This document shows positions 28,801 through 63,299 of a stretch of 64,000 nucleotides of DNA, one piece after another. The DNA lies in contig OZ020517.1 in the NCBI GenBank assembly GCA_963971425.1, positions 29,654,668 to 29,718,667 of the forward strand. Direction: 5' to 3'. The first letter of the stretch is position 1, and every line of letters starts with the position of its first letter. The notes under the pieces are model-generated. The model did no database searches. It was given only the letters and a program-made list of their open reading frames with translations, and was not told the origin of the DNA. The DNA is from Bryoerythrophyllum caledonicum (lineage: Eukaryota > Streptophyta > Bryopsida > Pottiales > Pottiaceae). The position numbers were made by a program, and so were the translations under genes.

Positions 28801-29560
28801 TTGGCTGAATGTTTGGGACCCTGATCGTGTGCAGAAAGAAGCAGGTCTTTTATGGTCGATCTGGCATAAAGCGGTTTAGTTAACGATTGGAGAGGGAGGT
28901 GTCAAGAAGCGCTTGACGTGCAATGTCTGCTCTGCTCCTGCAATGTGCCCGAATCTGTGATGCACAGATTCTGGGATTGTGAGTATGCCAAGAGGACGTG
29001 GAAGTGGGGTGAGTCAATCATCACTAGCATGCTGCCCCTGAAACCTACGCACCCGCTGCCCTCGCAAGAGCAGAGGCATGTCGTCGGCAGGAGGCTGGTT
29101 TTGGGACTTGAACATCTGCCGCCCCCCTCAATGTCGGACAGAAATGCGAACAGCGAGGATCCGTCCCTAACTTGGAAATGCGGCATTTTTGCTCATCGCG
29201 TTCAGAACAGAGTCAAGCCTCTCAATAAAATCTAGAATTTGCTCAGGGGCCTCATCGTGTGGATCCTTTGGATTGAGAGAAATGACGCTGTCTATAACAA
29301 CACTAGGTGGTAGCAGTAGAAGGTTCAAGCTAAGATCTGGTTAGGGCTCGTGGATTATGGTAGGAACGCCTGGATTAATACCCTTAACCTGTGTAAACAA
29401 GCCCCGGAGAAGAGCGAGATCTATGCTAACCGGTTCAAGAACCAATGGTGTTGCAATGAGATCCTCGCCTCTTGGGCTGATAAGAGACCTAACTGGAAGC
29501 TTTTCTCCAGTCATTGCGCTAGGAGTAGGGGTAGTAACTAGGTCTCTCTCTAACATGGAG
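25875..29560 (+). pseudogene. L1-like ORF2 remnant (EN, partial RT, zf-RVT)
   Basis: The frame runs to a stop at 27390. It continues in the same frame past further stops at 27639 and 28164, then shifts near 28240 and again after 28770. Two damages matter for function. The endonuclease reads 'LTGVWNFVE' where active L1 enzymes have GDFN. In addition, the protein jumps near 26970 from the linker ('MRTSDRCSKEFF') straight to 'GFPHKFFGMIQLLFQDASSAIKLNG', so the first half of the RT palm and fingers, including the motif A aspartate, has been deleted. This copy cannot encode a working RT. Confidence 0.85.
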
Positions 29561-29740
29561 CGAGAGTGAGCTCCGTAATTTCTGGAGAGGAGGGTGTAAG
29601 GACTTAGTCTCAAAACAAGTGCTACAGGCCACAAGGAGTGCTGGACTTTGAGGACGAGCCCCTGTTTGCACTAGTGTTGAGGGAAGGAGTGGACTCAGTG
29701 AAGCAGAGTGTGTTGGAATGGCTCGAAATTTTCAGATCTG
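25875..29740 (+). mobile_element. L1-like LINE, decayed and internally deleted
   Basis: This second, unrelated LINE has an APE endonuclease part ('VAILNVYCPHTPSERCQLW', 'SVHSDHLPIW') and the late reverse transcriptase motifs 'GFRQGCPLAPYLF' and 'AQYADDTSF' (27250-27275). A zf-RVT-type finger, 'CLLCSCNVPESVMHRFWDC', lies at about 28922-28978, followed by a C-terminal tail with 'WILWIERNDAVYN' (29260-29300). Both ends are approximate. The layout is that of plant L1-clade ORF2. The left boundary merges into unassigned sequence, and the right end abuts the 5' leader of family A copy 2. Confidence 0.85.
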
Positions 29741-29759
29741 AGGTTAGCACTACGTTTTA

Positions 29760-31978: not shown

Positions 31979-33598
31979 ATGTCTAGAAGAAACATGGAGA
32001 ACTCAGACACAGAGATGGAGGCCCAAGACAGGAGCCCAGACTCGACACCCAAGTCAAAAGCAACTAGGAGGGAAGGAGCAGCAACAAGCAGCAGCAAGAA
32101 GAAAAGAATCTCTTCAGCTGAAAAAGGTAAGTCACTCCAAACGCCAGAACTATTGAAGTTTAAATTTTGGCTAGGGTTCCCGGCTATGGAGGCCTTGGCG
32201 GTAGAGGAAGGGGCTGAAGAGTTATTCAGTGGAGAAACGGCGGAGGACATGGTCACGAGAGGACTCAAAGAGGAGGAAGCCATAGAGGCATCCAAAGCAA
32301 GAGTGGCATTCCCCCGCATCCCACAAGTACTCTACCCCATGGCAAGAACGGGAGTTGAAGGACAACATTACAACATCACTCAAATACCTTTTGACATCAA
32401 GACAAGTAAGAATTCAGGGCTATCCATTGACTTCCATGTTGCCATCTATTTTGAAACCCCCAAAACCCCTCTCATGCATGATGATGTTAAAGAAATGGTT
32501 AAGGCAAGGCTGAAAAAGATGGACATTATTCTAGGAATAGAACTCATTGACCCAATTGCAATTCAATGCTTAAGCATAAAAAACGGAAAAACTAAGGGGG
32601 TTTGGGCGGGATGCATTAAATTGCACCTCCTCAAGCCAGAAATTGATGGATTAATGCTACTCAAGGGCCTAAGGCCCTTCATTCTAACAATTGATGGAGA
32701 ATGTGTAGTGGGCAAAGTATGTAAAACCTACCATGGGATTGCCAATGGCTCCAACTTATCCGTGAAGGTCAAGAGCGAAGCCCTAGTGGGAATATCCGCG
32801 CAAGCACTCTTCAAAGAAGCACTTGGAATTAGCTTCCATCGAGGACACGAGTTTGAGATATCGGGAGTACAAAAGGCAACGAACGACTCGCATGCCTTCA
32901 TCATTGCCACGACTCCGCAACAAGTGAAGAAGATACTATTGCACCACATCACCATGCGTGGGGAAATATTGCAAACAAGACAAGTCCTTGACACAAAAGG
33001 ACCCAAAGGTACTATCGAAACTAAAGCTAAAAAAGATGCATTGACTCTTACCCTCTCACCTCTCCCCATCTTGCTTAATGTGGAAAGCACGACCCATGAA
33101 ATTTATAGAGTCATGGGTGGAGCTAATGTAAGATCAATTTGGTTTCACCGGGACAATGGCACTAACCACAATGGTAGTGCCAATGTCGTATGTTCTAACG
33201 CCATTGTCTATAGAACTTTTGTGAAGAAAACACATGTACTTGGTGGGAACTATGTGGACTTCTCACCCCACCGAAGAAGCTTGGAAGGAATCGAACCACC
33301 AACCGATGAACAAGTGAAAGCTTTTGGCTTTGACAACGTCAACACGGCAATAGTTAACACTATATCCACCTTCAACATGCAAGAGAAGAGTGACAACATC
33401 ACCAAAAGAGACATGGTGGAATTATTGGAAGAAAACAACAAGAAGATGAGGCAAGAAAATAGGGACTACACCAACAAACTACACGATGAATTGAAGATAC
33501 AAATGGAAGAAATTCAAATGTCCATGCTTGCCACACTTGAAGGTATGAGAGCCTTTGCGGGCAAAGTCAACAAACCAAGACTCGAGCCAAACATGTGA
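31979..33598 (+). CDS. Family A ORF1 protein (539 aa, C-terminal coiled coil)
   Basis: It starts at the first in-frame ATG (MSRRNMENSDTEMEAQ). Residues about 20-60 are Ser/Lys/Arg-rich (SKKKRISSAEKGK), a plausible nuclear-localisation or RNA-binding patch. Residues ~110-440 form a mixed alpha/beta region I do not recognise. Residues ~474-532 (ELLEENNKKMRQENRDYTNK onward) are strongly heptad-like and should form a coiled coil, as in many LINE ORF1 proteins that trimerise and coat the RNA. The last codons are AAC ATG TGA. The ORF2 frame is open from 33541 and so overlaps the ORF1 end by 58 bases. The C-terminal ~120 residues are conserved in copy 3 (53133-53489). A strong splice-donor-like GTAAGT lies at 32127. 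Confidence 0.8.
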   Translation: MSRRNMENSDTEMEAQDRSPDSTPKSKATRREGAATSSSKKKRISSAEKGKSLQTPELLKFKFWLGFPAMEALAVEEGAEELFSGETAEDMVTRGLKEEEAIEASKARVAFPRIPQVLYPMARTGVEGQHYNITQIPFDIKTSKNSGLSIDFHVAIYFETPKTPLMHDDVKEMVKARLKKMDIILGIELIDPIAIQCLSIKNGKTKGVWAGCIKLHLLKPEIDGLMLLKGLRPFILTIDGECVVGKVCKTYHGIANGSNLSVKVKSEALVGISAQALFKEALGISFHRGHEFEISGVQKATNDSHAFIIATTPQQVKKILLHHITMRGEILQTRQVLDTKGPKGTIETKAKKDALTLTLSPLPILLNVESTTHEIYRVMGGANVRSIWFHRDNGTNHNGSANVVCSNAIVYRTFVKKTHVLGGNYVDFSPHRRSLEGIEPPTDEQVKAFGFDNVNTAIVNTISTFNMQEKSDNITKRDMVELLEENNKKMRQENRDYTNKLHDELKIQMEEIQMSMLATLEGMRAFAGKVNKPRLEPNM

Positions 33599-36500
33599 CC
33601 TACAAAGACCACATAGTAATACATACGTACCCTCTAGTATATTATACTACTCAATATAGTCTAGACTCTACATACAATACTAGTATAGACTACATAGCTG
33701 AATTTTCCCACACACATTGTATTTCCCTCATGACTAAATACAAAAAAATATACGTATATACATATTGGAAGATACGTACGTATACGATCAAGTATACAAA
33801 TACAGCTACATATACATATACGGGGACATATATAAATACATATCAGAATACGGACACGAATACATCTACAAGTACAGATACGAATACAGGCACAAACACA
33901 TGTACGGGAAAAATTACTAATCTAAATACAAATACAAGAAACACATGTACGGGAAAAAATGGAATAAATAATAGAAGGAAGAAGAAAATAAGTATCATAA
34001 CTACATTGAATAGTAATACGTATACTGATACGTACACCAGGGAATATACTAATACGTATACCAGCAAGTACACTGATATAAATACTCGTACGATTAAAGA
34101 CAAATACACTATAACATATACTGATACCGATATAAATACGGATACATATACGGGGACACATACAAATATAGATAAGAATACAGAGACGAATACATCTACA
34201 AGTACAGATACAAATACAAGCATAAACACATATACGGAAAAAAATACTAATGTAAATACAAATACAAGTAAGGATATGGACACGGATACAGATATAGGTA
34301 TAAATACTCAAACAACAACTTATCAACCATTGCAAAAACCAATATACAAAATAGAAAGAATGATAATAATAATACACTACTTCTCACACAAACTAAGTAA
34401 AAATTCCAAAAAGAAAAGTATCAAAACCAAAATAAAAAATAAAAGGAATAAGAGAAAAGATGAGATTAAAATAAATAATAGAAGGAAAAAGAAAATAAGT
34501 ATCATAACTACATATAACAAAATAGGAAACAATATAAATGAAATAAATCATAAATTTTTTGTAATAAAGATACATAAGGGTAGAAGGGATTCTAAACCCA
34601 AAAACCATCAAAAGGCAAGGAATACAAAAATGGCTAAAAATAGAAAAATGAAGGAGAGTAAAAAGAGATATAATAAATTAAATAGGAAGAAGATAGATAT
34701 TTATAAAATTTCAGAAGTTTTAATTAGAGCAAGTAATATTAAAAATAAAATAACAAAAATGGAGAGGATATGTAAGAAGAAAAGAAAGGGTAAAGTAGAA
34801 AACCATTATCATAAGAAAAGAAATAATAAGAACATAACAATAAAGAGCAGTACTAAAAATAGAAAATGCTCCCTAAGAAATTCAAAAATAAGGGATGGAA
34901 AATTCACCAAATTAGTAATGGGAACTAGTTATAATAAGAATACAAAAGTGAAGAACATAGCTATAAACAGCAGTACTAAAAATAGAATATCCTTCCTAAG
35001 AAATTCAAAAATAAGGGATGGAAAATTCACCAAATTAGTAATGGGAATTAGTTTTAATAAGAATACAAAAGTGATGAACATAGCTATAAACAGCAGTACT
35101 AAAAATAGAATATCCTTCCTAAGAAATTCAAAAATAAGGGATGGAAAATTCACCAAATTAGTAATGGGAATTAGTTATAATAAGAATACAAATGTGAAGA
35201 AAATAGCAATAAACTGCAGTACTAAAAATAGAATATCCTTCCTAAGAAATCAAAAAATAAGGGATGGAAAATGCACCAAATTAGTAATGGGAATAAATAA
35301 TAATAAGAATACAATTAGGAAGACTATAGCTAGAAACAGCAGTACTAAAAATAGATTATGCTTCCTAAGAAATTCAAAAATAACGGATGGAAAATTAACC
35401 AAACTTGTAATGAGAAACAAAAATGTTAGAGTAAAAATAAATCCTAAACCTAGGAATAATAAAAGAGTACAGATTAAAAATAGAAATTGGAATATAAACT
35501 ACATGGATAAATGGAAAATTAATACTAATAATAAAAACTATATATATAAAGTTGGGGAGAGTTTGCGATTAAATAGTAGAAATTTGTTGAGAGTATGTAG
35601 AATGATTAAAATAGGAAGTGGGTTTTATGTTTCGCCGGCCGGATGGGCGCCGAAGGTGCCAAAAATAGACTTACTAAAAATAGAAATTCTAATAAAAGCA
35701 AGAATATATTCGAATCTGATTGAAATAAATATCAATCTGTTTTTAGAAATCATAGTTTTAGACAAATTATGTTTAGAAAGAAATCTTTTAGAAAACTCAT
35801 TTTTTCAATATACGGGTACATATACTGATACCTATACTGACACGTATACTGATATATATACTGACACGTATACTGATACGTATACTGACACGTATACTGA
35901 TACATACACCGATGAGTATACTTATAAATATACTGATACAAATACTGGTATGTATACTGATACACATACTGGTATGTATATAAATACAAATACTTGTACT
36001 TGTACAAATGCAAATACCAATACAAATAGTGATACGTGTACTCATACGAATACTAACACAAATACTAACAAAGATACTGATACAAATACCAAGACAAAAA
36101 CCGTGACATATACTAATACAAACATACAAAAGAATACTAATATAATAACACATAAAACTACATACACACACACAAAGACAACCACATACCATCAACGAAA
36201 CACATACATATACATACACACATACAAAGACAAACACACACAATCAAAAAAACACAAATACCAAAGCCATATTCAAAAACAAAAAATTCTAAAACAAAAC
36301 AAGAAACCCATCTACTACAAACTACTAATATTAATTGGAGGAGACATGGAGACTAACCCAAGACCCATGCCGAACATATTAAAAAGACACCCCGCTTCGC
36401 ACAAAAAGTATACCAAAACATATTTTATACCAAATACTAATACAAACACCAAAACAAACAATTGTACAAACGACAAAGTATATAATAACACCGCATATGA

Positions 36501-39500
36501 AAAAAAGGATTTAAAAGCCACTTTAAAAACCAACATAAACCCACATACAAATAGTCTTAAACATAATAGTTACATATGCACACGGACAAAAACAACCAAG
36601 GTAAAATACAACCAATTCTACATACATCCATACCCTACTAAAACAAAAACAACCACAAAAAACACATGGACAAAAAATAAACTAAAGACAAAAACAACTA
36701 CACCTACTATAAAAATAAATAAACCCACAACTCACACACAAAATACAAACATCCACCTACCCCCAAACCAACAAGTCATTAATAACACAACAAAGCTTTT
36801 AAAATACACCACTAAACATATATACCACAAACTTCTACTACTTCTAGGAGGAGACATTGAAACCAACCCGGGACCCATGCCCAATATACTAAAAAGACAT
36901 CCTACATCACATAAGAAAAATGCCAAAATCTACTTTATACCTAATACCATAAAACTCCAACCAGAATATGAACACATTGCAAAACCCTTCGCACCATTTC
37001 TAAAAAACACACATACATTACACCACATACAAAACACTTCCCACCCAAACATTGCCCAATACATACAACAAAAAAATACGCATCCACCACCCCACATCTT
37101 ATATGCACTAATAATCACTACTCATCCAAACATAGATGAATGTAACCAACTTCTAAATCCACAAAATTGGAACACAATTACATGGACTAATACACTCCTA
37201 CAAACCTTACTAACCTTACAAAACCCACCAGAACGACACATTTACACTCCACACCCCTATACTGAATTCCTAGTAGACAACCAAAATATTATAAACCATG
37301 AGAACTCAATACATAAAAGACTATACGACTTCTTACATAGTCAAGACATACCACCCTCAAATGATATAATAAAACTAAAATTCCCTTACCTCCCTAACAA
37401 CCTCATAAATGAATCACTAAAATGCCTAGACCCTATACCAGAATACACCCACCCACCCCCACCTCTTCCCTACATCCCTCCTCAAAACCAAAATCAAAAC
37501 ATTAGACGAAACCAAGAAAATACATACATAATCACATGGAATGCCTCCTCACTAAACACTGCCCTTCCTAGCTTACAAACTCTAGTCGCAAACACAGACA
37601 CACCACCGGCTCTTATAGTTATACAAGAAACAAAACTAACCGCCACAAAATCTACAAAATATATACAAAATATATTTCAAGACTATAAACTCATCTTTAA
37701 CAATACACATGCACTTACAAGATGCATGCAACAAAGGAGACCATACACACCGGGCCGCGGTGGCCTCCTTACATTAATACACAAAAAATATACATTCCCC
37801 GGCAACATCAACAAAATCCCTACCCCAATGCACATATCACCATACATTCAAATAATTAAAATCACTAATCACCCACTACAATCGTGGTTAATCTTTCACA
37901 TGTATATGCCATCCCATCCCGAAGATACTAGATTTCTCTTAGATATACAAAACACTATTACAACCCATATTAATAATCATCCCAATCATACATACCTATT
38001 ATGTGGAGACTTCAATAGAGACATAGCGCTAATTGGCCGCCAAAATGGAAACCATCACACCCCCCCTCAAAACATTGATTACCAATGGCGCCGCTTCACA
38101 GAAAACTTAAACTTCACTTACATCAATACCGATACACAATTCTCTAGACAAGGTGGCTACAATTATAGTGATTGGAGTCTAATAGATGGTTTCTATATAA
38201 ATACAAACAACAACATACAATACACCTCCACAACAAACAAAGATATTATTCTCAATTCGGACCACTCACCCGTACAACTGCACATCCCAAATAACACACT
38301 AATTAGTAGAACTCCTACAATCCCAAACAAAGACACTATACGCATACTCAACCCCATCCCAAAAACCAACATAGAAAAATTCAACACAAAATTCTTCGAA
38401 GAAAACACCGTACAAATAGACTCCCTCATAAACACTCTTGAAATCAATAGTCAATTAACACAAGCACAATGGCAAGAAGCATGCCACTCTCTAGACAAAC
38501 TCATCAATAAAATTTCCGATACACTAGAACAAACTTGTAGAGCACACCCAATACCCCAAATGACAAACAGAACCTCTCAACAAGGCGGGTATCTACCCCG
38601 CAAACTTTCTAAAACTTGGAAACAACACTTAACCACATACCATACCATACGTAAAACCATTAGAATTGTAAAAAACAACCCTCAATGGCGTAACCACCCC
38701 ATACACAACGAACTACTAAATATACAACACATCCAAATCCCTACCCCGCCGCCTCCGGACCTTCCCCACGATACATGGATAAAAGATATCGCGATAATTG
38801 CAAAAAATGCCAACATACAAGCCCGGAAAATAATCACAAAATACACAAAAGAAAACATTAAAAAAGCCATCTCAAAATACAGACAACTATACGAAATCAG
38901 CCCCAAAAAAATTAACAAAAAAGTCTTTAAAAACCTTGAATCCCCACCAATGAATTGTATCAAAGATCAATATAATAATATTCTAACTAACCCCGAAGAC
39001 ATTGCGAATGAAATATTCAACCAACAAACAAAAACCAATAGACCAACACTACCAACATGTAATTACCAGCCACAACATACAATAGAATGCACATGTGCAA
39101 TACGCCAATACCCATGGCACGACCTAGACGGATATACCCTTGACAAACGGGGCGAACCAGAAATTCCACTACATAAATACCTCAACAGAGCCACATACGA
39201 CACATGCCTCCAAAATCTTGGAAATAATAAAGCCCCAGGCCCAGACCGCATACCAAATTCAATACTGAAAAACATGCCTCCAAGATTTCATAAACTACTA
39301 TTCCTATTCTTTTTTCACTGCTATAAACAAAAACAAATACCAAATTCATGGAAAACAAGTGCAACAATTCTACTATACAAAAAAGGCGATCCATCCATGC
39401 TACCCAATCATAGACCAATTGCACTAGCTAACACAATATATAAGCTTTTTACCAGTACACTCACCCACATACTATCCTCATACGGCGAAAAATTCAAAAT

Positions 39501-42500
39501 CCTACATGATAGTCAAGAAGGATTTAGAGCGGAGAGAAGTACCGCACGGCAAATACAAACTATAATAGCCGCATTAGAAGACGCAAAATTTACTAACCAA
39601 GATATATACATACTATACGTGGACTTCAAAAATGCCTTTGGCTCAATTGATCATGCCAGACTTCTAGCAATAATGTCAGACCTTGGCTACCCAAAAGAGG
39701 CAACTACACTTGTTGGAAACATCTATTCCCAATCATCTACTTGCTATATCGGAGAACACTTTGGGAAAACTAAACCTATACCCATCCAAAGAGGAACTAT
39801 ACAAGGGGACACCCTTAGCCCATACTTATTTATTATATTTTTAGAACCACTACTTAGATGGCTAGAAAGAGGCAATAATGGATATACTTTCGGCACATCA
39901 CAAGTCACAATAAACTCCGCCGCATATGCAGATGACCTAGCCACCATAACTAACAAAATCAAATCAATCCAAATACAACTCCATAAAATTGATAGATATT
40001 GTAAATGGGCTGGCATGGATGTGGGAGTTCCAAAATGTGCCGCTACCGGATGCCCAAACAAATCTAAATTGAACCCTACCACTTTCAAAGCCTTAATGCA
40101 AACCTCTAACATCAACTACCGCAACCAACCAATCCCTATACTACACCAAAACGAACCATACATATACCTAGGTACAAATCTTGTTCCCTCACTAAAATGG
40201 AAAATCCAAATCCACACTACAACCACAAAGCTCATCAAACAATGCAAAGAACTAACAACATGCCCAGCCACCATGAAACAAAAAATAAAAATGGTTGATA
40301 CCGTACTACGCCCAGGTGTGGCATACAGTTTCTACGGTGTACCATACTCTATGCCAGCTATCAAAAAACTTGATAAAAAAATAATAGCCATACAAAAAAC
40401 CATATGTGGATTACCAAAATGTATGTCAAACGCAATAACCCAACTACCACATAACCTATTTGGACTTGAAGCTTTCTCCCTCAAAAACGCATACCTCCGA
40501 TGTATAGGCGAACAACTGCAAAATGCTCTAAACGATAAAGGAAGACTTGGGAAAATATATAATGGATTAACTCACTATGTCCTTGCCCAATATGGTGGCG
40601 CTGAAAACATACCGAGAATTAAAAAAAGTGATTGCATAAGATCACCAATAACACGAACATTCTTCTTATTAAAACATATAGCTAAAGCCCACCTTAAAAG
40701 TACGCTCCCGAACTTCCTCACTAATCCTACAACACTAGAAATACTATGGCGCCAAGAAACATTAAATCATAACACACTCAATGCCCAACTCTCCCAAAAG
40801 CTTCTACAAAAACTCCTCTCAAAAAATATTTTTGAACTAAACCAAATTACCTTACCTAACGGTACACACATCATGAACAATGAGGACTTCAAAACCTACC
40901 ACTTCACCCCATCTAAACTAATAAAGAGTGCCCTAAATATTGCTAAACAACTATTTTGCCACATAACATGCCCCACTATATGTCATACTCCTTGCAACAT
41001 ACACCCATACTCTCATACGCTTAAAGATCCATTCATCACCTTCAACAATAACATCATCCCAAGAAATATTCCCACACCAACCAATCCCCCTAACCCTCCA
41101 CATACATACCACCCCCGCCCCCCAACATACATCCCCAAAAACCCTACCAAATACCCCATTAATAATATCATAAACCATAAACGTATCCAACACACAGACA
41201 CAAATAACATACAAAATACCTACACAAAATATCTATGCCAATGGCAACACAATGATAATACATACAATAAATGGCTCCCCCAAAGAGACCTTTTTCCACG
41301 GCATGACGCCAATACCTCCACACATAACACTGAAAAATTAAAACAATACTACCAAAAGATCCAAAACAAAATATACTTAGATATCATCCTTGCCCACCAT
41401 CCACAAGAACAATCCTCAGACTCAAGGTCTGTAACACCACCCATAATTATCCCACTCTTAAACATCTACACAACAGAATGTAACCCCGAAAATGATATCC
41501 TTACATCCTCAAACACAATTCAAATAGATAACAATCAAGCACATCTATACGAAGAAAACGGCCGACATTTACACACCATACCCATTACCCGGCTCCAATG
41601 GTTATGGAACCAATATCATATAAAATTACAATCCCCTACAAACATTGAACCAACAACCCAACCCTTTGAAACCGAACTAATATGGCTTTACCAAAGATAT
41701 AAATATCGAATACCAAAAACTGACCCCCTCAAAAATGCGCAATACACAATACCCACCCGCATTTTAGACTCACTGATATCATCCTTTAACATTGAACACT
41801 CATACTTTTCCTCCCCGATTACATGTCCTACCAAACTAAATAAATTCTACTCACCGTACGAAAGAGATAAAATATTTGGATCCCTAGGCAAGGCCTTTGA
41901 ACACAAATGGATCGGAAATGGAATAGCTCACCCCCACAACGAGGAAGACATAGAACAAGCCATACATTGGGCTCGACTTGCCGCCAAACACGATCCAAAC
42001 AACACAAAAACAATCATCGTCACACCGAACAACAATTGGTACCAAAACAACAGCCAACATTCAAACCCATTCCCAGATTCCCACATCATTGCATTATTCG
42101 AAGCAGACACAATACCATACGAAGAACCTAATATCCCACCTGAGCTAAAAAAACCCCGAATTGAGCCATCTACATTACAAATACTATGCGTCCATCATCA
42201 AAATCAAAACCTGGGCTCCCTAGAACAACTTGCGGAACTTACCTCCATATCAGACAATCTAGACATACAACGACCATACACAAAACCGGCCCCACCAACA
42301 CCCATACAAACCCCCGTAAACAAAAGTAAAAAATGGTCAAAATTAAACTATGACAACAACACATTAAACTACTCCGTCATACCTCCCCCTCTCCCAGACT
42401 ACCCAACTCATACCACACCAAAATTTAACCCCGCATACAGTTATTACACCGACGGCTCCTTTAAACCACCGGAACAAATTAGCCCGGGCTCTTGGCGCAG

Positions 42501-43905
42501 AGAAAAAGCTGGCTATGGCATATATAATTCTACCAAAGAAATTAAACTAGCCAAAAGACTCCATGGACTACAAAATATCCTCAGAGCAGAACTCATGGCC
42601 ATTCACAAAACACTACAAATCATTATAACAAAATACAAAAATGAACCTGCACATATATTCACCGATTGCATAAATGCACTCTACCTACTAAACACTCAAA
42701 TAACACACCCAACCCTTCACAACAGTCACCCCGACCAAACCATACTAACATCAATGGTACAAATGTTACAAAAACGTACACAAATCACAACCCTTCACAA
42801 AGTCAGAGCCCATGCCAACATTGATGGCAACGAACAAGCAGACAAACTTGCAAAAGAAGGCCGAGAAAAAACACACAAAAAAGCCAAAGACCCTCACGAA
42901 CATGCTCATGCCACCCCATACTACTTTCAAAAAGAAGATTGGCCTTCCAAAGAAGATACCCCCGACAAAGGCCCAATTAGATTTCTGGGCAAATATCTCA
43001 AAAAACAAGATCTCTACAACAACCTGGATACAATCTCAGAAAATATTCCTAACATAGAAAAATGGACTAACAATAACGACATAGACAATGAACTCTCTAC
43101 AAACTTTTGGAAAAACCCCATCATCTCAGACTCACAAATAACGTGCCTCATCAAATTCCGTACGGGTCAATACATGGGAAACGCTCGCAAACAACTCTTC
43201 TTTGGAATAGAAAGATTCCCATCCATAACATGCCCCATATGCCCCTCAACGGACCCCGACACATGGCTACATGTGCTACTCAAATGCCAAAACCACCACA
43301 TTCACTCTCTAATTGTTAAAAGACATAACAAAGCGGTATGGGAAGTCCGAAAACTAATCACCTCCTACAATAAATCGAGATGTTTCATACTTATGAACGC
43401 CGGCACTTTTAATAGCAATCCACAAGAAAACACGGTCCCCCCATGGCTACTTCCATGCTCATGTATGACCCAAAGATGTCATTGCAACGCTAGGTTCAAA
43501 CCGGACATTCTTTGTGTCAAAGGTTTACCATACAACGACCCACCACCCGAGAACATCAACCAAGACTACACCATTCAATTCATCGAATTTACATATTGCA
43601 ACGATAGATTCTCCCCGGAAACAATACAAAACAAAATAGATAAATACCAACCCCTCATAGACGACATCATTGCCCTCGGCTGGAATGTGGACCCCCTTAT
43701 TGTTATCACATCCGGCGCTCGTGCCACCACCTTTATCCCATCTATGAAAACTCTCGAAGATACCTTCAAGATACCCATTGATACAATCAAAACTACCTTT
43801 AAAAATATCAACACCATCGCTATTCAACATGCCATGTCTATTTTACTGCATAAACGCAAAATCGAAAACAACCAAGTCCTCCCTGATAGGCAAGACCCCC
43901 CTTAG
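33595..43905 (+). CDS. Family A ORF2: giant polyprotein with 2A, APE, RT, RNase H, CCHC, REL-like
   Basis: The frame has no stop from 33541 to 43905. The first ATG is 33730. Numbering counts the codon at 33595 as residue 1. Residues 1-245 and 738-880 are Thr/Tyr/Asp/Asn repeats, and 255-720 are Lys/Asn-rich with five 41-aa repeats. 2A-like motifs lie at 917-924 (degenerate) and 1087-1094 (canonical). APE endonuclease ~1312-1560: N1316, E1345, D1472, N1474, D1531, D1556, H1557. Reverse transcriptase ~1850-2180: D2010 in VDFKNAF, D2113/D2114 in YADD. RNase H ~2945-3095: D2953, E2999, D3024, D3083. Zinc finger C3213, C3216, H3226, C3231, then RHN. REL-like end: KPD (D3304), E3331, K3347/K3350. 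All catalytic positions are intact. Two endonuclease types together match the Dualen/RandI architecture. Confidence 0.9.
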   Translation: MTYKDHIVIHTYPLVYYTTQYSLDSTYNTSIDYIAEFSHTHCISLMTKYKKIYVYTYWKIRTYTIKYTNTATYTYTGTYINTYQNTDTNTSTSTDTNTGTNTCTGKITNLNTNTRNTCTGKNGINNRRKKKISIITTLNSNTYTDTYTREYTNTYTSKYTDINTRTIKDKYTITYTDTDINTDTYTGTHTNIDKNTETNTSTSTDTNTSINTYTEKNTNVNTNTSKDMDTDTDIGINTQTTTYQPLQKPIYKIERMIIIIHYFSHKLSKNSKKKSIKTKIKNKRNKRKDEIKINNRRKKKISIITTYNKIGNNINEINHKFFVIKIHKGRRDSKPKNHQKARNTKMAKNRKMKESKKRYNKLNRKKIDIYKISEVLIRASNIKNKITKMERICKKKRKGKVENHYHKKRNNKNITIKSSTKNRKCSLRNSKIRDGKFTKLVMGTSYNKNTKVKNIAINSSTKNRISFLRNSKIRDGKFTKLVMGISFNKNTKVMNIAINSSTKNRISFLRNSKIRDGKFTKLVMGISYNKNTNVKKIAINCSTKNRISFLRNQKIRDGKCTKLVMGINNNKNTIRKTIARNSSTKNRLCFLRNSKITDGKLTKLVMRNKNVRVKINPKPRNNKRVQIKNRNWNINYMDKWKINTNNKNYIYKVGESLRLNSRNLLRVCRMIKIGSGFYVSPAGWAPKVPKIDLLKIEILIKARIYSNLIEININLFLEIIVLDKLCLERNLLENSFFQYTGTYTDTYTDTYTDIYTDTYTDTYTDTYTDTYTDEYTYKYTDTNTGMYTDTHTGMYINTNTCTCTNANTNTNSDTCTHTNTNTNTNKDTDTNTKTKTVTYTNTNIQKNTNIITHKTTYTHTKTTTYHQRNTYIYIHTYKDKHTQSKKHKYQSHIQKQKILKQNKKPIYYKLLILIGGDMETNPRPMPNILKRHPASHKKYTKTYFIPNTNTNTKTNNCTNDKVYNNTAYEKKDLKATLKTNINPHTNSLKHNSYICTRTKTTKVKYNQFYIHPYPTKTKTTTKNTWTKNKLKTKTTTPTIKINKPTTHTQNTNIHLPPNQQVINNTTKLLKYTTKHIYHKLLLLLGGDIETNPGPMPNILKRHPTSHKKNAKIYFIPNTIKLQPEYEHIAKPFAPFLKNTHTLHHIQNTSHPNIAQYIQQKNTHPPPHILYALIITTHPNIDECNQLLNPQNWNTITWTNTLLQTLLTLQNPPERHIYTPHPYTEFLVDNQNIINHENSIHKRLYDFLHSQDIPPSNDIIKLKFPYLPNNLINESLKCLDPIPEYTHPPPPLPYIPPQNQNQNIRRNQENTYIITWNASSLNTALPSLQTLVANTDTPPALIVIQETKLTATKSTKYIQNIFQDYKLIFNNTHALTRCMQQRRPYTPGRGGLLTLIHKKYTFPGNINKIPTPMHISPYIQIIKITNHPLQSWLIFHMYMPSHPEDTRFLLDIQNTITTHINNHPNHTYLLCGDFNRDIALIGRQNGNHHTPPQNIDYQWRRFTENLNFTYINTDTQFSRQGGYNYSDWSLIDGFYINTNNNIQYTSTTNKDIILNSDHSPVQLHIPNNTLISRTPTIPNKDTIRILNPIPKTNIEKFNTKFFEENTVQIDSLINTLEINSQLTQAQWQEACHSLDKLINKISDTLEQTCRAHPIPQMTNRTSQQGGYLPRKLSKTWKQHLTTYHTIRKTIRIVKNNPQWRNHPIHNELLNIQHIQIPTPPPPDLPHDTWIKDIAIIAKNANIQARKIITKYTKENIKKAISKYRQLYEISPKKINKKVFKNLESPPMNCIKDQYNNILTNPEDIANEIFNQQTKTNRPTLPTCNYQPQHTIECTCAIRQYPWHDLDGYTLDKRGEPEIPLHKYLNRATYDTCLQNLGNNKAPGPDRIPNSILKNMPPRFHKLLFLFFFHCYKQKQIPNSWKTSATILLYKKGDPSMLPNHRPIALANTIYKLFTSTLTHILSSYGEKFKILHDSQEGFRAERSTARQIQTIIAALEDAKFTNQDIYILYVDFKNAFGSIDHARLLAIMSDLGYPKEATTLVGNIYSQSSTCYIGEHFGKTKPIPIQRGTIQGDTLSPYLFIIFLEPLLRWLERGNNGYTFGTSQVTINSAAYADDLATITNKIKSIQIQLHKIDRYCKWAGMDVGVPKCAATGCPNKSKLNPTTFKALMQTSNINYRNQPIPILHQNEPYIYLGTNLVPSLKWKIQIHTTTTKLIKQCKELTTCPATMKQKIKMVDTVLRPGVAYSFYGVPYSMPAIKKLDKKIIAIQKTICGLPKCMSNAITQLPHNLFGLEAFSLKNAYLRCIGEQLQNALNDKGRLGKIYNGLTHYVLAQYGGAENIPRIKKSDCIRSPITRTFFLLKHIAKAHLKSTLPNFLTNPTTLEILWRQETLNHNTLNAQLSQKLLQKLLSKNIFELNQITLPNGTHIMNNEDFKTYHFTPSKLIKSALNIAKQLFCHITCPTICHTPCNIHPYSHTLKDPFITFNNNIIPRNIPTPTNPPNPPHTYHPRPPTYIPKNPTKYPINNIINHKRIQHTDTNNIQNTYTKYLCQWQHNDNTYNKWLPQRDLFPRHDANTSTHNTEKLKQYYQKIQNKIYLDIILAHHPQEQSSDSRSVTPPIIIPLLNIYTTECNPENDILTSSNTIQIDNNQAHLYEENGRHLHTIPITRLQWLWNQYHIKLQSPTNIEPTTQPFETELIWLYQRYKYRIPKTDPLKNAQYTIPTRILDSLISSFNIEHSYFSSPITCPTKLNKFYSPYERDKIFGSLGKAFEHKWIGNGIAHPHNEEDIEQAIHWARLAAKHDPNNTKTIIVTPNNNWYQNNSQHSNPFPDSHIIALFEADTIPYEEPNIPPELKKPRIEPSTLQILCVHHQNQNLGSLEQLAELTSISDNLDIQRPYTKPAPPTPIQTPVNKSKKWSKLNYDNNTLNYSVIPPPLPDYPTHTTPKFNPAYSYYTDGSFKPPEQISPGSWRREKAGYGIYNSTKEIKLAKRLHGLQNILRAELMAIHKTLQIIITKYKNEPAHIFTDCINALYLLNTQITHPTLHNSHPDQTILTSMVQMLQKRTQITTLHKVRAHANIDGNEQADKLAKEGREKTHKKAKDPHEHAHATPYYFQKEDWPSKEDTPDKGPIRFLGKYLKKQDLYNNLDTISENIPNIEKWTNNNDIDNELSTNFWKNPIISDSQITCLIKFRTGQYMGNARKQLFFGIERFPSITCPICPSTDPDTWLHVLLKCQNHHIHSLIVKRHNKAVWEVRKLITSYNKSRCFILMNAGTFNSNPQENTVPPWLLPCSCMTQRCHCNARFKPDILCVKGLPYNDPPPENINQDYTIQFIEFTYCNDRFSPETIQNKIDKYQPLIDDIIALGWNVDPLIVITSGARATTFIPSMKTLEDTFKIPIDTIKTTFKNINTIAIQHAMSILLHKRKIENNQVLPDRQDPP
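33790..34320 (+). repeat. First Thr/Asn/Asp/Tyr coding repeat in ORF2
   Basis: Hexamer-like ATACNNATA/TACNGATACGAA units encode runs such as YTNTATYTYTGTYINTYQN and TNTSTSTDTNTGTNT. A block around 33840-33960 recurs at about 34180-34260 with the same text (TNTSTSTDTNT). Unit lengths are multiples of three, so the array can grow or shrink without breaking the frame. Confidence 0.7.
34846..35440 (+). repeat. Five 123-bp coding tandem repeats (41 aa each)
   Basis: Units begin at 34846, 34969, 35092, 35215 and 35338 with AGCAGTACTAAAAATAG (TGCAGTACT in the fourth). Each encodes about SSTKNRISFLRNSKIRDGKF followed by TKLVMGISYNKNTKVKNIAIN. Units 2 and 3 are almost identical; units 4 and 5 are more diverged and unit 5 is shortened at its end. 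The protein is strongly basic, which would suit nucleic-acid binding. That function is inference. Confidence 0.92.
35806..36130 (+). repeat. Second coding repeat: TATACTGATACG array (YTDT)
   Basis: A 12-base unit TATACTGA(T/C)ACG, four codons Y-T-D-T, is repeated about ten times from 35815 to 35940, then decays into NTNTGMYTDTHTGMYINTNT and NTNTNKDTDTNTK. It lies just upstream of the first 2A-like motif. The equivalent part of copy 3 is short and built from other small repeats. Confidence 0.85.
36307..36366 (+). other. Degenerate 2A-like motif (GDMETNPRP)
   Basis: Codons at 36343-36366 read D-M-E-T-N-P-R-P, one residue off the D-x-E-x-N-P-G-P signature: the essential glycine is arginine. The hydrophobic lead-in KLLILIGG and the following MPNILKRHPASHKK closely match the second motif 510 bases (170 codons) downstream, so one arose from the other by in-frame duplication. 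With R in place of G it is not expected to work. Confidence 0.8.
36817..36876 (+). other. Canonical 2A-like ribosome-skipping motif (GDIETNPGP)
   Basis: Codons at 36853-36876 read D-I-E-T-N-P-G-P (residues 1087-1094). They follow KLLLLLGG, the type of hydrophobic lead-in seen in 2A sequences of animal non-LTR elements. 2A peptides make the ribosome skip the G-P bond, so the low-complexity N-terminal part (about 1,090 residues) would be released from an enzymatic part starting at P1094 (about 2,340 residues). Cleavage is inferred from the motif only. Confidence 0.82.
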
Positions 43906-44166
43906 GAACTTCGCCACTCTGTCTCTTCCTGATTGGTTGCCTGTTTGGTTTTGTTTTTTGTTGTTTAGTTAGTTTGGTCGTGGCTCGTCGTTGTCGGTTG
44001 GTTTCTGGCTACTCGTTACATAGTGTCTACCTCCGAAAGGGGGAAGTAGTTCCAGTTCGCTAATTCCTTGTCCGGTGGGCATGGTCTTAGCAATGGAACG
44101 AACAGACACTTTATTCACGCCGGTTCCCTTCGGGAACCGGCGTTCTTCTTCTTCTTCTTCTCTCTC
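43906..44166 (+). other. Family A copy 2 3' UTR with perfect terminal stem-loop and (TTC)n
   Basis: The 3' UTR is about 260 bases. Blocks shared with copies 1 and 3 are TAGTGTCTACC, GGGGAAGTAGTTCCAGTT, TAATTCCTTGTCCGG and ACTTTATTCAC. The last part folds into a 13-bp perfect stem with a TTC loop (44117-44143, inner stem GGTTCCC/GGGAACC), directly followed by CTTCTTCTTCTTCTTC. Confidence 0.85.
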
Positions 44167-44287
44167 TAACCCTTTGTTTCCTCTAACCACTGACCGGCCC
44201 GGGACTTGTCCCAGCCCCACCGGCTCTGGCGGGGGCTTGCCTTGTTCTTTTATCTTCCTGCAGTAAAGTTTTCCTTTACTTGTGTCA

Positions 44288-44941
44288 AAAAAAACAAACA
44301 AAACCTTGCTACAGTAGTACAAATACTTCTTTCCGACACTCTATAATAGACACTTTTACATTCTTCACATTTCTGACACTCTTTGGGACTCTTTCTTTTC
44401 TTTTTTGACACAAGCAAAGGTAACCTTTACTGCAAGAGGGCTTTGGACCCTTTCTTCAACGCTTCACCATTAACAGTCGAAATTAGAGTGACAAAATTAG
44501 CTCCACATGTGCAACAATTAAAAACGATTTAGTGATGGGAGCCACCAATATGTCACCGTGAATATTAGAGAGAGTATCGTATTTAGTACAAGATGTACAC
44601 AGAACAAGTCAAACTGGCATTGATTTTGGAGTTAGAACAGAGTGTAAGGTGCACTAATTATAATATTTCACCAGTAAGCTTGGTACATGTGAACTGTATG
44701 GGAGTTCACAATCACTATATATGAGAGCACAAAAATTCCATTTCCACAGTTAAATACAATAATTAGCGTTGAGACTTATCATCCAACCTTGTCAGTCGAT
44801 TCAGTGCCAAATTAATACTATAATTTATCGTGGATCGAAAGTGTAAGTGTATTGCAAGTAAAGTTTGCTTTTCATGTGAAAAAATAGAAGAGTAAAACGT
44901 TAACAAAAAAAGTGGGCCACCTCACATCTGCAAGTTTGATC
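44288..44941 (+). repeat. 650-bp dispersed segment, copy 1 (landing site of LINE copy 3)
   Basis: Almost identical to 60188-60836, from AAACAAAACCTTGCTACAGTAG to CTGCAAGTTTGATCA. It is not coding. Directly upstream, at about 44260-44290, CTGCAGTAAAG...CTTTACTTGTGTCAAAAAA is the inverse of TTTTTTGACACAAGCAAAGG...CTTTACTGCA at 44402-44435, forming an inverted repeat of some 30 bases that the second copy lacks on its left. The right end is cut by LINE copy 3, while the other copy continues as CCTACACTAAG. Confidence 0.8.
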
Positions 44942-45246: not shown

Positions 45247-48200
45247 TTAGGGTGGGTCGTGTGTATCAGGGAGGGCTTGGTTATTTTCAATTTTCCGTTT
45301 ATGAAGAAGGATGGACATAGCGTGTTGTATGGCAATGATGTTGATATTTGTGAAAGTGTTAGTAATTGTATTACTAGGAATTTTGAAGGTGTCTTCTAAG
45401 ATTTTCATGGATGGGATAAATGTGGTAGCGCGAGCGCCGGCTGTGATTACCATGAGGGGGTCCACTTTCCATCCAAGGGCAGTGATGTCATCTAGAAGGG
45501 GTTGGTATTATTGGTTTTGTTTTCGATTGTTTCAGGGGAAAACCTGTCGTTACAGTATGTAAATTCGATGAATTGAATGGTATAGTTTTGGTTTATGTGG
45601 TCGGATGGGGGGTCATTTTATGGTAGGTTTCTAACGCACAGTATGTCCGGTTTAAGTCGAGCATTGCAGTGACATCTTTGGGTTTCACATGTACATGGGA
45701 GTAGCCATGGTGGGACTGTGTTTTCTTGTGGGTTGTTGTTAAAGGTGCCGGCATTCATGAGGATAAAGCATCTCGATTTGCTATGGGAGGTAATTAGTTT
45801 ACGGAGTTCCCATATGGCTTTGTTATGTCTTTTGACAATAAGGGAGTGTATGTGGTGGTTATGGCATTTAAGTAAAACATGTAACCATGTGTCGGGATCC
45901 GTGGACGTGCATATTGGGCATGTTATTGATGGGAATCTTTCTATTCCAAAGAAGAGTTGTTTACGGGCGTTTCCCATGTATTGACCGGTACGGAATTTGA
46001 TAAGGCATGTGATTTGTGAATTTGTGATGATGGGGTTTTTCCAAAAATTTGTAGAGAGTTCATTGTCTATGTCATTGTTGTTAGTCCACTTTTCTATGTT
46101 AGGGAAGTTGTCTGAGATTGTATCAAGGTTATTATATAAGTCCTGTTTTTTGAGGTATTTGTTTAAGAATCTTACCGGGCCTTTGTCTGGGGTGTCTTCT
46201 TTGGAGGGCCAATCTTCCTTTTGGAAGTAGTGTGGAGTGGCGTATGCATGTTCGTGTGGGTCTTTGGCGTTTTTGTGTGATTTTTCTCGGCCTTCTTTTG
46301 CTAGTTTATCTGCTTGTTCGTTACCGTCTATGTTGGCATGTGCTCGAACTTTGTGGAGGGTTGTGGTTTGGCTTCGTTTTAGTATCATTTGAATCATTGA
46401 TTTTAGTATGATTTTGTCAGGGTGGCTATTGTGAAGGGTAGGGTGTGTTATTTGGATGTTTAATAAATATAATGCATTAATGCAATCTGTAAATATGTGT
46501 ACCGGTTCATTGTTGTATTTTGTTGATACTATTTCCAACGTTTTGTGGATGGCCATGAGTTCTTCTCTAAGGATATTTTGTAGCCCATGTAATCTTTTGG
46601 CTAGTTTGATTTCTTTTGTAGAATTGTATATTCCATAACCGGCTTTTTCTCTACGCCAATTGCCTGGACTGATCTGTTCTGGTGGTTTGAAGGAGCCATC
46701 GGTATAGTAGCTGTATGCGGGTTCAAATTTTGGTGAGGTGTTGGTTTGGTAGTCCGGGAGGGGTGGAGGTGATAAATTGTAGTCTAATGTGTTACTATTG
46801 TAATTTAATTTTTACCATTTTTTGTTTCTGTGGACTGGTGTTTGTATAGGTGTTGGTGGAGCCACCTTTGTATATATTTGTTTTATGTTAAGAGTATTTG
46901 CTCTGGAGGTGATATCGGTAAGTTGTTCTAGGGTGCCAAGGGTTTGGCTTTGGTGGTGGACGCATATTATTTGTAGTGTAGATGATTCAATTCTGGGCTT
47001 TTTTAGCTTTGGTGGAATGGTGGGTTCTTCGTAGGGGATTGAGTCTGCTTCAAATATTGCGATGAAATGTGAGTCTGCAAATGGGTTTGATTGTGGGTTG
47101 AAGTTTTGGTACCAATTTTTGTCTGGTGTGATAATGAGTGTAGATGTGTGTTGTGGGTCATTTTTAGCAGCTAGGCGGGCCCAATGTAGTGCTTGTTGAG
47201 TCTCCACATCATTGTGGAGGTGAGCTAAACCATTACCGACCCATTTATAGTCGAAGGCTTTTCCCAAGGAGCCAAATATCTTATCTCTTTCAAAGGGTGA
47301 GTAAATTTTTTTTAATTTGGTGGGGCATGTGACGGGGGAGGAGAAGTATGATTGTTCGATGTTAAAGGATGAGATTAATGAGTCTAGTATAGGTGTAGGT
47401 ATTGTATATTGTGTATTTTTTAGGGGTTTTTTTTTTGGAATGCGGTATTTATATCTTTGGTATAGCCAAATTAATTCGTTTCAAATGGTTGGGTTGTTGG
47501 TTCAATGTTTGTAGGAGTTTGGAGTTTCATGTTGTATTGGTTCCATAGCCATTTGAGTCTGATAGTGGGGATGGTGTGTAAATGTCGGCCATTTGCTTCA
47601 TATAGATGGGCTTCTATTTTAATTGTACTCGAGTTTGTGATAATGTCTTTTTCAGGATTACATTCCATTGTATAGATATTTAGTAGTGGGATGTTTATAG
47701 GTGGGGTTACGGACCTTGAGTCTTGTGTTTGTTCTTGGGGGTGGTGGGCTTGAATGATTTCCGAGTAGAATTTGTATTTAATTTTTTGATAATATTGTTT
47801 TAGTTTTTTTGTGTTATATGTGGAGGTATTGCAATTGTGTCTTGGAAAGAGGTTTCTTTGAGTAATCCAATTATTGAATGTGTTGTTGTCATATTGCCAT
47901 TGGCATAGGTATTTTATATAGGTATTTTGTATTCTGTTGGTATCTATGTGTTGTACATGTTCATGTTTTATGATGTTACTAATAGGATATGTGGTGGGAT
48001 TTTTGGTGATGTATGTTGGGGGGCGGGGGTGGTATGGGAGTAAGGGGTTGGAGGATGCATAGGTGGTGGGGTAGTTCTTGTGAGGATGTTGTTGTTGGCG
48101 ATGATGAATGGGTCTTGGAGTATGTAGGAGTATGGGTGTATGTTGCAAGGGGTGTCACATGTAGTTGGGCATGTTGGTTGGCAAAAAAGTTGTTTAGCCA

Positions 48201-51200
48201 CATTTAGGGCACTCTTGATTATTTTGGATGGGGTAAAATGGAAGGTTTTGAAGTCTTCATTATTCATGATGTGTGTACCGTTTGGTAGAGTGATTTGTTT
48301 TAATTCAAAAATATTTTTTGAGAGGAGTTTTTGCAAAAGTTTTGGGAAAGTTGGGCATTGAGTGTGTTGTGTTTTTGTATTTCTTGACGCCATACTGTTT
48401 CTAATGATGTTTGATCAAGGAGAAAATTTGGAAGCGTGCTCTTAAGGTGAACTTTAGCTACGTGTTTTAATAAGAAGAGTGTGCGTGTTATTGGTGATCT
48501 TATACAGTCGGTTTTTTTGATTCTAAGTATGTTTTCGTCACCCCCATATTGAGCAAGAATATAGTGAGTAAGTCCTTTATATATTTTTCCGAGTCTACCT
48601 TTGTCATTTAGGGCATTTTGTAATTGTTCCCCTATACATCGTAAGTAGGCATTTTTTAGGGAGAAAGCCTCAAGTCCAAAGAGGTTGTGCGAGAGTTGTG
48701 TTATTGCGTTTGACATGCATTTTGGCATACCACAAATGGTTTTTTGTATTGCTATAATTTTTTGATCAAGTTTTTTTATTGTTGGCATAGAGTATGGTAC
48801 ATCATAGAAGCTGTATGCTACACCTGGGCGTATTACGATGTCAACGATTTTAATTTTTTGTTTCATGGTGGCCGGGCATGTTGTTAAATCTTTGCATTGT
48901 TTAGTGAGTTTTGTGGTTGTAGTATGAATTTGTATTTTCCATTTTAGGGAGGGGACAAGGTTTGTGCCTAAGTATACGTATGATTCATTTTGATGTAGTC
49001 TGGGGATTGGTTGGCCACGGTAGTTGATGTTATATGTCTGCATTAGGGCTTTGAATGTAGTTGGGTTCACTTTGGATTTATTTGGACATCCAGTAGCAGC
49101 GCATTTTGAGACGACTACGTCCATATCAGTCCAATTACAATATCTATCGATTTTTATCTATTTGTGTTTGTAATGATTTTATTTTGTTAGTTATAGTGGC
49201 AAGGTCATCAGCGTAGGCGGCTGAATTTATGGTAATTTGTGATGTACCAAAAGTGTATCCATTATTGCCTTGCTCAAGCCATCTGAGTAGTCGTTCTAGG
49301 AATATGATGAATAGATATCGGCTAAGGGTGTCCCCTTGTATTGTTCCTCTATGAATGGGGATGGGTTTAGTTTTGTTAAAGTGTTCACCGGTGTAATATG
49401 TAGATGATTGGGAGTATATATTTCCAATTTGTGTAGTTGCATCTTTTGGGTATCCAATATCAGTCATTATTACTAGTAGTCGAGCGTGGTCTATAGAGCC
49501 AAAGGCATTTTTGAAGTCAATATATAAGATATATATATCTTAGTTTGTGAATCGTGCGTCTTCTAGTGTCGCTATTATGGTTTGTATTTGTCTGAAGGTA
49601 CTTCGTTCTACTCTAAAGCCTTCTTGACTGTCGTGTAGGATTCTGAATTTTTCACCGTATGAGGATAGTATTGAGGTGAGTGTACTGGTGTATAGTTTAT
49701 ATATAGTGTTGGCTAATGCTATTGGTCTATGGTTTGTTAGTATTGAAGGATCTCCTGTTTTGTATAGTAGAATTGTTACACTTGTTTTCCATGATGTTGG
49801 TATTTGTTTTAGTTTGTAACACTGAGAGAAGAATATAAATATTAATTTATGAAATCTTGGAGGCATGTTTTTGAGTATTGAATTTGGTATGCGGTCTGGC
49901 CCTGGGGCTTTGTTATTTCCAAGGTTGTGTAGACATGTATCGTATATGGCTCTATTGAAGTATGTGTGTAGTGGAGTTTCGAGATCTCCTCTTTTATCTA
50001 GGGTAAAACCGTCAAGATCATGCCATGGGTATTGACGTACGGCACATGTGCATTCGATTCGGTGTTGTAGTTGGTAGTTGCATGTTGGTACTGTTGGTCT
50101 ATTATTTTTTGTTTGTTGTTTGAATATTTCGTTTGCAATATCTTCGGGACTAGTTAGGATGTTGTTGTATTGGTCCATGATACAATCTAGTGGTGGGGTT
50201 TCAGAACTTTTAAAAACATTTTTATTTATTTTCTTAGGGCTGGTTTCGTATAGTTGTCTGTATTTTGAGATGGCTTTTCTAATATTCTCTTTTGAGTAGT
50301 TTGTAGTTACTTTCCGTGCTTGAATTTTGGCATGTTTTGCGATTAGTGCAATGTCTTTTAACCATGTATCATGGGGTAGTTCTAGGGGAGGTGGGGCGGG
50401 AATTTGGATATGTTGTAGAGTTAGTAATTCGTTACATATGGGATGGTTACGCCATTGTGGGTTATTCTTTACGGTTCTAATTGTTTTACATATTATATGA
50501 TATGTAGCTAGGTGTTGTTTCCATATTTTTGAAAGTTTTTGGGGTAAATAGCCGCCTTGTTGTGTTGTGCGGTTTGTCAATTGTGGTATTGGTTGGGCTT
50601 TGCAAGTTTGTTCCAATGTATTAGAGATATTGTTGATAATTGTATCTAGGGTGTGGCATATTTCGTGCCATTGTGTTTGAGAGAGTTGATTGTTATTTTC
50701 AAGGATGTTTATTAGTGAATCTATTTCTATAGAATTTTCTTCAAAGAACTTTGTGTTAAATTTTTCTAAGTTATCTTTTGGGATGGGGTTGAGTATGCAT
50801 TTATTGGTATTGTTTGTGATTGTGGGGTTACGACTTATTAATATGTTATTTGGGATTTTGAGTTGTATCGGTGAGTGGTCTGAGTTAAGAATAATGTCTT
50901 GATTTGTTGTGGAGGTGTATTATATGTTGTTATTTGTATTTATATAGAAGCCGTCTATTAGGCTCCAATCATTATAGTTGTAGCCGCCTTGTCTGGAGTA
51001 TTGTCTGTCAGTATTTATGTAGGTGAAGTTTAAGTTTTCTATGAAGTGGCGCCATTGATAGTCTATGGTTTGAGGGGGGGTGTTATGATTTCCGTTATGT
51101 CTATCAATTACTGCTATGTCTTTGTTAAAATCTCCACACAATAAGTAAGTATGATTAGGGTTTTGATTTATTTGGAATGTGATAGTGTTTTGTATATCTA

Positions 51201-52431: not shown

Positions 52432-52458
52432 GTATGAATTATTAATATATATTGAATA

Positions 52459-53130: not shown

Positions 53131-53132
53131 CT

Positions 53133-60063: not shown

Positions 60064-60187
60064 GATAGTATATTTTTGAACTGGGACCACCTGTTTGGTC
60101 TGAGCGAATCAAACTTGCTTCCGCCACGTTTAGTCCACCAGTCCCCGCCTCTGTCCCCTGGACTCCCCTCCGAGTTTGTGATACCAA

Positions 60188-63275: not shown

Positions 63276-63299
63276 GTGAAGACAATGAATCAAAAGATT

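Follow-up and report, generated by a model that had tools for sequence, protein, structure and literature searches.

We consider it quite likely that the window, the whole 64,000-nucleotide stretch of DNA that was analysed, carries an autonomous and recently active LINE with two endonucleases, one of about 2,000 or more land-plant copies. This element would release its enzyme at a 2A peptide and insert at unspecific sites by target-primed reverse transcription. The initial annotation had described the two endonucleases and an RNase H, while the PCIF1-like domain, the 2A peptide, the exchangeable 5′ half and ORF1 with the 14.6-kb unit were absent from it.

Extent, copies and insertion sites of the element

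Three copies of the element lie in the window, and the unit was delimited on copy 2.

29555–44158, + strand: full-length LINE (copy 2), 14.6 kb, 98.3% colinear with the copy on contig C15 over 29555–44154
29543–29554, + strand: left target-site duplication TCTCTCTCTAAC, 12 bp
44159–44170, + strand: right target-site duplication TCTCTCTCTAAC, 12 bp
44091–44158, + strand: 3′ end with hairpin GCCGGTTCCCTTCGGGAACCGGC and (TTC)n tail, source of a 29-base tag
1–6137, + strand: copy 1, cut off by the window start
45250–53531, − strand: copy 3, with broken frames and about 81% identity over the main blocks

The similarity between copy 2 and the C15 copy started at 29555. Because of this colinearity and the flanking duplications, we defined the unit as a LINE of about 14.6 kb consisting of ORF1, ORF2 and a 3′ UTR. 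An assembly artefact was ruled out by the second copy, which is colinear across 14.6 kb. The 3′ UTR was about 250 bases long and terminated in the hairpin and (TTC)n. The right edge of copy 2 is uncertain by a few bases, since the (TTC)n tail merges into the duplication. The ORF1 part at 53136–53531 appeared to belong to copy 3.

Duplications were also found around other copies. The C15 copy had a 12-bp duplication (TCCATGTGGTCC), with 14 additional bases between the duplication and the shared 5′ start, and a truncated copy (L013) had one of 13 bp. The duplication script was run on 37 sequences, several of which were the same place twice, and a possible 5′ boundary was obtained at five places. 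Three of these gave a duplication, namely the window copy, the C15 copy and L013. The test returned merely a 7-base chance match at L012 and no duplication at L020, where the boundary was probably not the true one. Reading of 5′ ends by eye covered cC4 and cC7a. The duplication measured 14 bp at cC4, where about 37 additional bases separated it from the shared 5′ start, and 12 bp at cC7a.

The 3′ end was matched 40 times in the DNA searched, corresponding to 36 distinct places (four were matched twice). No common target was seen by eye in the 3′ flanks at these 36 places. Site-specific insertion, a trait of the R2 clade, was rejected because the flanks were unrelated. The 3′ end of copy 3 itself was not matched in this search. 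One of the 40 matches, diverged by four differences, lay elsewhere, at 18236–18269 on the minus strand, within a Tc1/mariner-like item. This item (17509–21139) encodes a Tc1/mariner-like transposase that a stop divides into two parts (HTH_Tnp_Tc3_2, 5.2e-11; DDE_3, 1.3e-12). It has 203-nt inverted repeats that are 73% complementary, and an inner ORF of 63-base repeats.

Several other repeats were noted around the element. Another LINE (25848–29232; RVT_1, 1.3e-9) lies directly 5′ of the giant element and is L1-like by a weak zf-RVT end (0.0016, below cut-off). A direct repeat, 95–96% identical between 44295–44737 and 60185–60628, begins shortly past the 3′ end of the element. Dispersed repeats of about 60–85% identity, with inverted partners, occupy 7527–8068, 61327–61874 and 62902–63625, and a weak kinase-like fragment (9218–9526) was found near the first of them.

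The 29-base tag had 2,068 matches in the genome at one mismatch or fewer, and the reversed control had none. A search with the 250 C-terminal residues yielded 8,806 first-look candidates, of which 150 places were scored, all 98–100% identical. The number of tags and the identity of the scored places implied that the family is young and very abundant.

The 3′ part of the window copy was 97.1% identical to cC4 over 10.4 kb and 97.8% identical to cC7a over 9.4 kb. These two copies had in common a 7.0-kb block at 98.3%, which included an alternative 5′ half. The ORF1 of the alternative 5′ module was 35% identical to the window ORF1 (6e-79). Comparison of 29555–33779 with cC4 and cC7a (L054, L055, L045, L046) revealed two 5′ halves on a near-identical 3′ part, as in a module exchange. 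These distinct 5′ halves suggest that the 5′ half is exchangeable, through recombination of different lineages or a switch of template from one to another.

By gene content, the host genome looks like that of an embryophyte, which is probably no flowering plant. There were 31 NAM matches in the genome, representing about 17 genes; of the 15 dirigent matches, 14 exceeded the cut-off. MLO exons were located in the window, and NAC genes on the contig of the window. We take NAM, dirigent and MLO to be land-plant markers, and the plastid rbcL to be of the streptophyte type. Two different types of rbcL were present in the assembly (contigs C821, C590 and C894; L009–L011), and the plastid of a second plant may be present.

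Reading frames, 2A peptide and domains

Both reading frames of copy 2 are open. The order within ORF2 is 2A, APE, reverse transcriptase (RT), chromodomain-like stretch, PCIF1-like domain, RNase H, CCHC finger and restriction-like endonuclease (RLE).

29876–33598, + strand: ORF1 frame, no in-frame stops, conserved part from ATG 31979 (539 aa)
33541–43905, + strand: ORF2 frame, 3454 codons open, stop at 43903–43905, candidate start only
33730–36831, + strand: low-complexity ORF2 leader before the 2A, more than 1,000 codons, stop-free
36322–36366, + strand: degenerate 2A-like motif (GGDMETNPRP), from motif reading
36832–36876, + strand: 2A peptide LLLLLGGDIETNPGP, fitting the StopGo core
37525–38274, + strand: APE endonuclease, PF03372 (1.1e-5) and motif residues
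39085–40194, + strand: reverse transcriptase, PF00078 (1.4e-26)
41152–41295, + strand: chromodomain-like stretch (tentative), PF00385 (0.003–0.0098) in three of four copies, sub-cut-off
41677–42048, + strand: PCIF1-like (cap methyltransferase-derived) domain, PF12237 (1.4e-10), over the curated cut-off
42400–42894, + strand: RNase H, PF00075 (2e-12)
43231–43902, + strand: CCHC finger and putative RLE, from the ordered motif, hhalign to R2 and dN/dS
43456–43485, + strand: CxCx4CxC insertion preceding KPD, a possible second zinc site, from sequence alignment

The leader was open in all six other copies. From 33730 to 36819 the ORF2 frame is free of stops, whereas the other forward frames contain 106 and 119, and composition predicts 85.7. 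Its dN/dS was 0.47–0.70 in five copies and 1.18 in a near-identical one. The StopGo core is given as (D/G/C/N)(V/I)ExNPGP in PMC12846837, and LLLLLGGDIETNPGP satisfies this core in an open frame upstream of the APE. GDIETNPGP occurred nine times in the DNA searched. GELEINPGP, which belongs to the other 5′ module, occurred three times and departs from the core in two residues, having E where D would stand and L where V/I would stand. In copy 3 the 2A motif was lost (NRGP). An open and weakly constrained leader followed by a 2A is best explained if the leader is translated and then released at the 2A, which would presumably be active. That a plant element has a 2A motif is noteworthy, because PMC12846837, in its treatment of natural StopGo use, reports no evidence of such use by plant viruses.

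The initial annotation placed a complete APE before the RT in ORF2 of copy 2, and this was borne out. The motif set was complete (WN, QET, HMYMP, GDFN, SLIDGF and SDHSP within 37525–38274), PF03372 matched at 25.7 bits (cut-off 24.5), and the RNase H was also present. The signature residues of APE, RT and RNase H, whose meaning is general knowledge, were all readable in place. Values of dN/dS were 0.10–0.11 for the APE (two comparisons), 0.07–0.10 for the RT (four comparisons) and 0.07–0.14 for the RNase H (six comparisons). Taking the APE, RT, PCIF1-like domain, RNase H and RLE together, dN/dS remained at 0.06–0.18 in 23 of 24 comparisons, with dS saturated in the other one. The kinship of the RT was judged by score, against R2 and human L1 references only. 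The best solved-structure score within this set was with R2 9nl2 (3.5e-30), followed by a second R2 type (9nl3/9dou, 3.4e-26). Human L1 (5.2e-21) and then R2 8gh6 (6.9e-16) scored lower.

The PCIF1-like domain sits between the RT and the RNase H. Across the genome, PF12237 gave 2,614 first-look candidates, and the 150 places scored were all over the cut-off. With human PCIF1, hhalign gave an E-value of 3e-6 over 127 columns at 24% identity, and the score of 43.1 compared with at most 25.2 in 40 shuffles. The corresponding hmmsearch E-value was 0.012 for a PDB-sized search. PCIF1 was not found in the PDB profile search with the seven-row alignment of the domain, and the PDB search with a single sequence gave chance-level matches only. 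The AlphaFold model of the region, from a three-row alignment with the window's own copies only, was discarded at a pLDDT of 33.1. The name of PF12237 mentions WW, and the matched part includes the NPPF stretch of the solved PCIF1 chain.

PCIF1 writes m6Am adjacent to the mRNA cap, and its NPPF motif contacts the target adenine. This catalytic motif was found in none of 13 element copies. The site reads AHPH in 11 of the 13 (the window copy has AHPH within 41914–41949), AYPH in one and AHLH in one. The dN/dS of the domain was 0.11–0.18 in all six comparisons, implying that it is of use to the element even though the canonical catalytic motif is missing. It is improbable that methyltransferase activity persists in the domain through an altered motif, with DNA or the element's own RNA cap as substrate. 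Elsewhere the domain is indeed conserved, and the seven-copy alignment retains the FGSLGKAF block and H-x-H, but NPPF, the motif that contacts the target adenine, is absent from all 13 copies.

The stretch at 41152–41295 tentatively resembles a chromodomain. Pfam Chromo ranked first in two of four copies and second in another; it was missing from the remaining one, which is the most diverged. The curated cut-off was not reached (best 17.9 bits versus 25.1), and the Pfam scan of the whole ORF2 gave Chromo an E-value of 1.9. Two of the three matches in the PDB profile search were CBX4 chromodomains, with E-values of 0.53 and 0.58.

The C-terminal restriction-like endonuclease

The C-terminal motifs were all present where they had been placed before, with the CX2CX9HX4C finger at 43231–43287, RHN at 43321, KPD at 43498, IEF at 43582 and KIDKY at 43633. 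Sequence comparison also agreed with the claim that the finger and KPD are kept in all three window copies; copy 3 was disrupted past KPD by one stop and by a frameshift falling in K..KY. When the C-terminal 336 residues were shuffled 200,000 times, the order CCHC-RHN-KPD-acid-K..KY never appeared. In a set of seven copies, diverged ones among them, KPD was present in six (RPD in L060), as was K..KY (frameshift in copy 3). The dN/dS of the RLE was 0.06–0.10 in five of six comparisons, and the sixth was saturated.

Comparison with three solved R2 endonucleases by hhalign covered 114 columns, with an E-value of 0.0029 and a score of 26.6, and 40 column shuffles scored at most 21.0. RHN, KPD and K..KY were aligned with their R2 partners. 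In HMMER, the element reached 8.1 bits with the R2 profile, at an E-value of 19 for a PDB-sized search, and the highest of 500 shuffles reached 6.7. R2 8gh6 reached 7.8 bits with the element profile (E 17; best of 510 shuffles 3.1). With the element profile, R2 9nl2 scored under five shuffles and 9dou was absent from the list. On its own, HMMER gave the link between the RLE and R2 no significance in either direction. PDB searches with the single RLE sequence and with the RLE alignment returned chance-level matches only and no R2. No relatives were found in viral_contigs with the RLE, RT and PCIF1-like alignment. The AlphaFold model of the RLE, from a four-row alignment with the window's own copies only, had a pLDDT of 31.3 and a pTM of 0.23 and was discarded.

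The position of the catalytic acid differed between alignments. The R2 aspartate (DVTV) faced D3324 in hhalign and a glutamine in MAFFT, and E3331 in neither. By eye, FIEFTYC fits VVDVTVR better than the D3324 alignment does. E3331 was kept in all seven copies; D3324 was replaced by N in two and missing from a third. We tentatively propose E3331 as the catalytic acid of the RLE. The spacing from D3304 to E3331 is longer than in R2 (27 residues versus 13), as the initial annotation had pointed out, and its active-site assignment stays tentative. Relative to R2 9nl2, the interval from RHN to KPD, which holds the CxCx4CxC cluster, is longer by 25 residues, and that from KPD to the acid by 14. The "SGAR" at 43711 resembles, by eye, the R2 "LGARG" after the last strand.

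The reading of this end as an R2-type RLE therefore held in its ordered motifs, its modest hhalign match and its purifying selection, and did not hold in HMMER significance or in alignment of the acid. We regard an R2-type RLE as supported by motif, with a modest profile match. An alternative is that the APE alone cuts and that the C-terminus is a finger with a degenerate nuclease fold, which binds DNA or RNA. Such a single-endonuclease LINE would account for the deviation of the putative active-site spacing from R2, for the acid that the programs did not align, and for insertion that is not site-specific, unlike that of many RLE elements. Nevertheless, this alternative seems unlikely, though it carries real weight. 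KPD, E3331 and K..KY are retained in six, seven and six of seven copies at the low dN/dS given above, and a lost motif in this element looks like the missing NPPF of the PCIF1-like domain. It is far less plausible, and indeed very improbable, that the C-terminus is the zinc-binding tail of a plant L1 with coincidental nuclease-like letters. Plant L1 elements do end in a similar finger, as the neighboring LINE at 25848–29232 seems to do at its sub-cut-off zf-RVT score. Against this stand the ordered motif that no shuffle reproduced, the three motif blocks facing R2 partners, and the RT, which scores above L1 with two of three R2 types.

Relation to known elements and proposed mechanism

Elements with both APE and RLE are described as the Dualen/RandI group in PMC3636483 and PMC4640811. 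In Table 3 of PMC3747384, RandI families are entered for green algae, and L1 and RTE for flowering plants. Dualen elements of Chlamydomonas and related species are reported in PMC8226300. As far as these four sources treat the subject, they agree with the earlier statement that Dualen/RandI are the dual-enzyme elements of green algae. The present element likewise combines APE, R2-type RLE (by motif and profile), RT and RNase H. It differs in its embryophyte host, its PCIF1-like and chromo-like stretches, its 2A peptide and its tail, which is (TTC)n rather than the (ATT)n or (CTATTT)n given for algal RandI in PMC3747384. No cysteine protease was recognised by Pfam in ORF2 or ORF1, where a diverged one could escape. 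Such a domain was reportedly part of the original Dualen description. The proposal of a land-plant Dualen-like element was largely borne out, as regards the APE, the RLE by motif, the RNase H and the embryophyte gene content. The element seems to resemble Dualen/RandI in its working. We have not classed it as a member, because no protease was found and the RT was set against R2 and human L1 scores only.

With R2 (9nl2, 9nl3, 9dou and 8gh6), the element shares the order CCHC-RHN-KPD-acid-K..KY and an RT that is nearest by score to 9nl2 and 9nl3/9dou. However, it has an APE and an RNase H, no site specificity was seen, and its RLE contains insertions. Plant L1 LINEs have an APE and an RT, an RNase H in some, and a C-terminal finger. 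The element resembles them in these features and has an L1-like neighbor at 25848–29232, but it carries RLE motifs, and two R2 types outscore human L1 in comparison with its RT. Odon reportedly described APE-type LINEs with 2A peptides in 2013. The 2A motif is common to them and to the element, whose 2A differs in following a leader of about 1,000 codons and in having a second form (GELEINPGP) in the other 5′ module.

The cap-adjacent m6Am methyltransferase PCIF1/CAPAM shares the 127 aligned columns at 24% identity, whereas the element lacks NPPF and has the domain fused into a LINE. A narrow search of open-licence literature found no description of PCIF1 or PF12237 in retrotransposons, and we found no description of two endonucleases, a PCIF1-like domain and a 2A combined in one LINE. 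Many algal proteins are annotated with the PF12237 name, and algal Dualen elements may share the PCIF1-like domain. If so, the novelty of the domain would be lower and that of the host unchanged.

From the domains, their conservation and selection, the duplications and the flanks without a visible common target, we infer the following course of replication. The mRNA would encode ORF1, the low-complexity leader, the 2A and then a separate enzyme (APE-RT-chromo-like-PCIF1-like-RNase H-CCHC-RLE). ORF1 would package the element RNA. The ribosome would free the leader at the 2A and continue into the enzyme, provided that the 2A functions in the host. Target-primed reverse transcription would start at a nick in an unspecific site, from the (TTC)n tail beside the 3′ hairpin, and insertion would leave duplications of 12–14 bp. 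The APE would most likely make the first-strand nick, because it does so in other APE elements, and this agrees with the unspecific targets. The RLE and finger would most likely bind DNA and cut the second strand, and the RNase H would remove the RNA. The PCIF1-like domain might bind without catalysis, its ligand perhaps being the capped 5′ end of the element RNA, and chromatin may be selected through the chromo-like part.

A broader reading is conceivable, though we hold it to be doubtful. A land-plant LINE lineage would have kept both endonucleases and captured a PCIF1, now a non-catalytic reader that probably recognises the element's own capped 5′ end, with chromo-like targeting and 2A release. 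If this is true, the LINE would use its two nucleases after checking both RNA ends (cap and 3′ hairpin) and the chromatin, and such checking would explain the full-length persistence of 14.6-kb copies. As set out in PMC4640811, the case for a replacement of RLE by APE during the evolution of LINEs rests on dual-endonuclease elements. With a young and abundant family in a land plant, in which selection acts on both enzymes, one could test in a plant how the two share the work, and a PCIF1-derived domain would connect LINE replication with the cap-methylation machinery.
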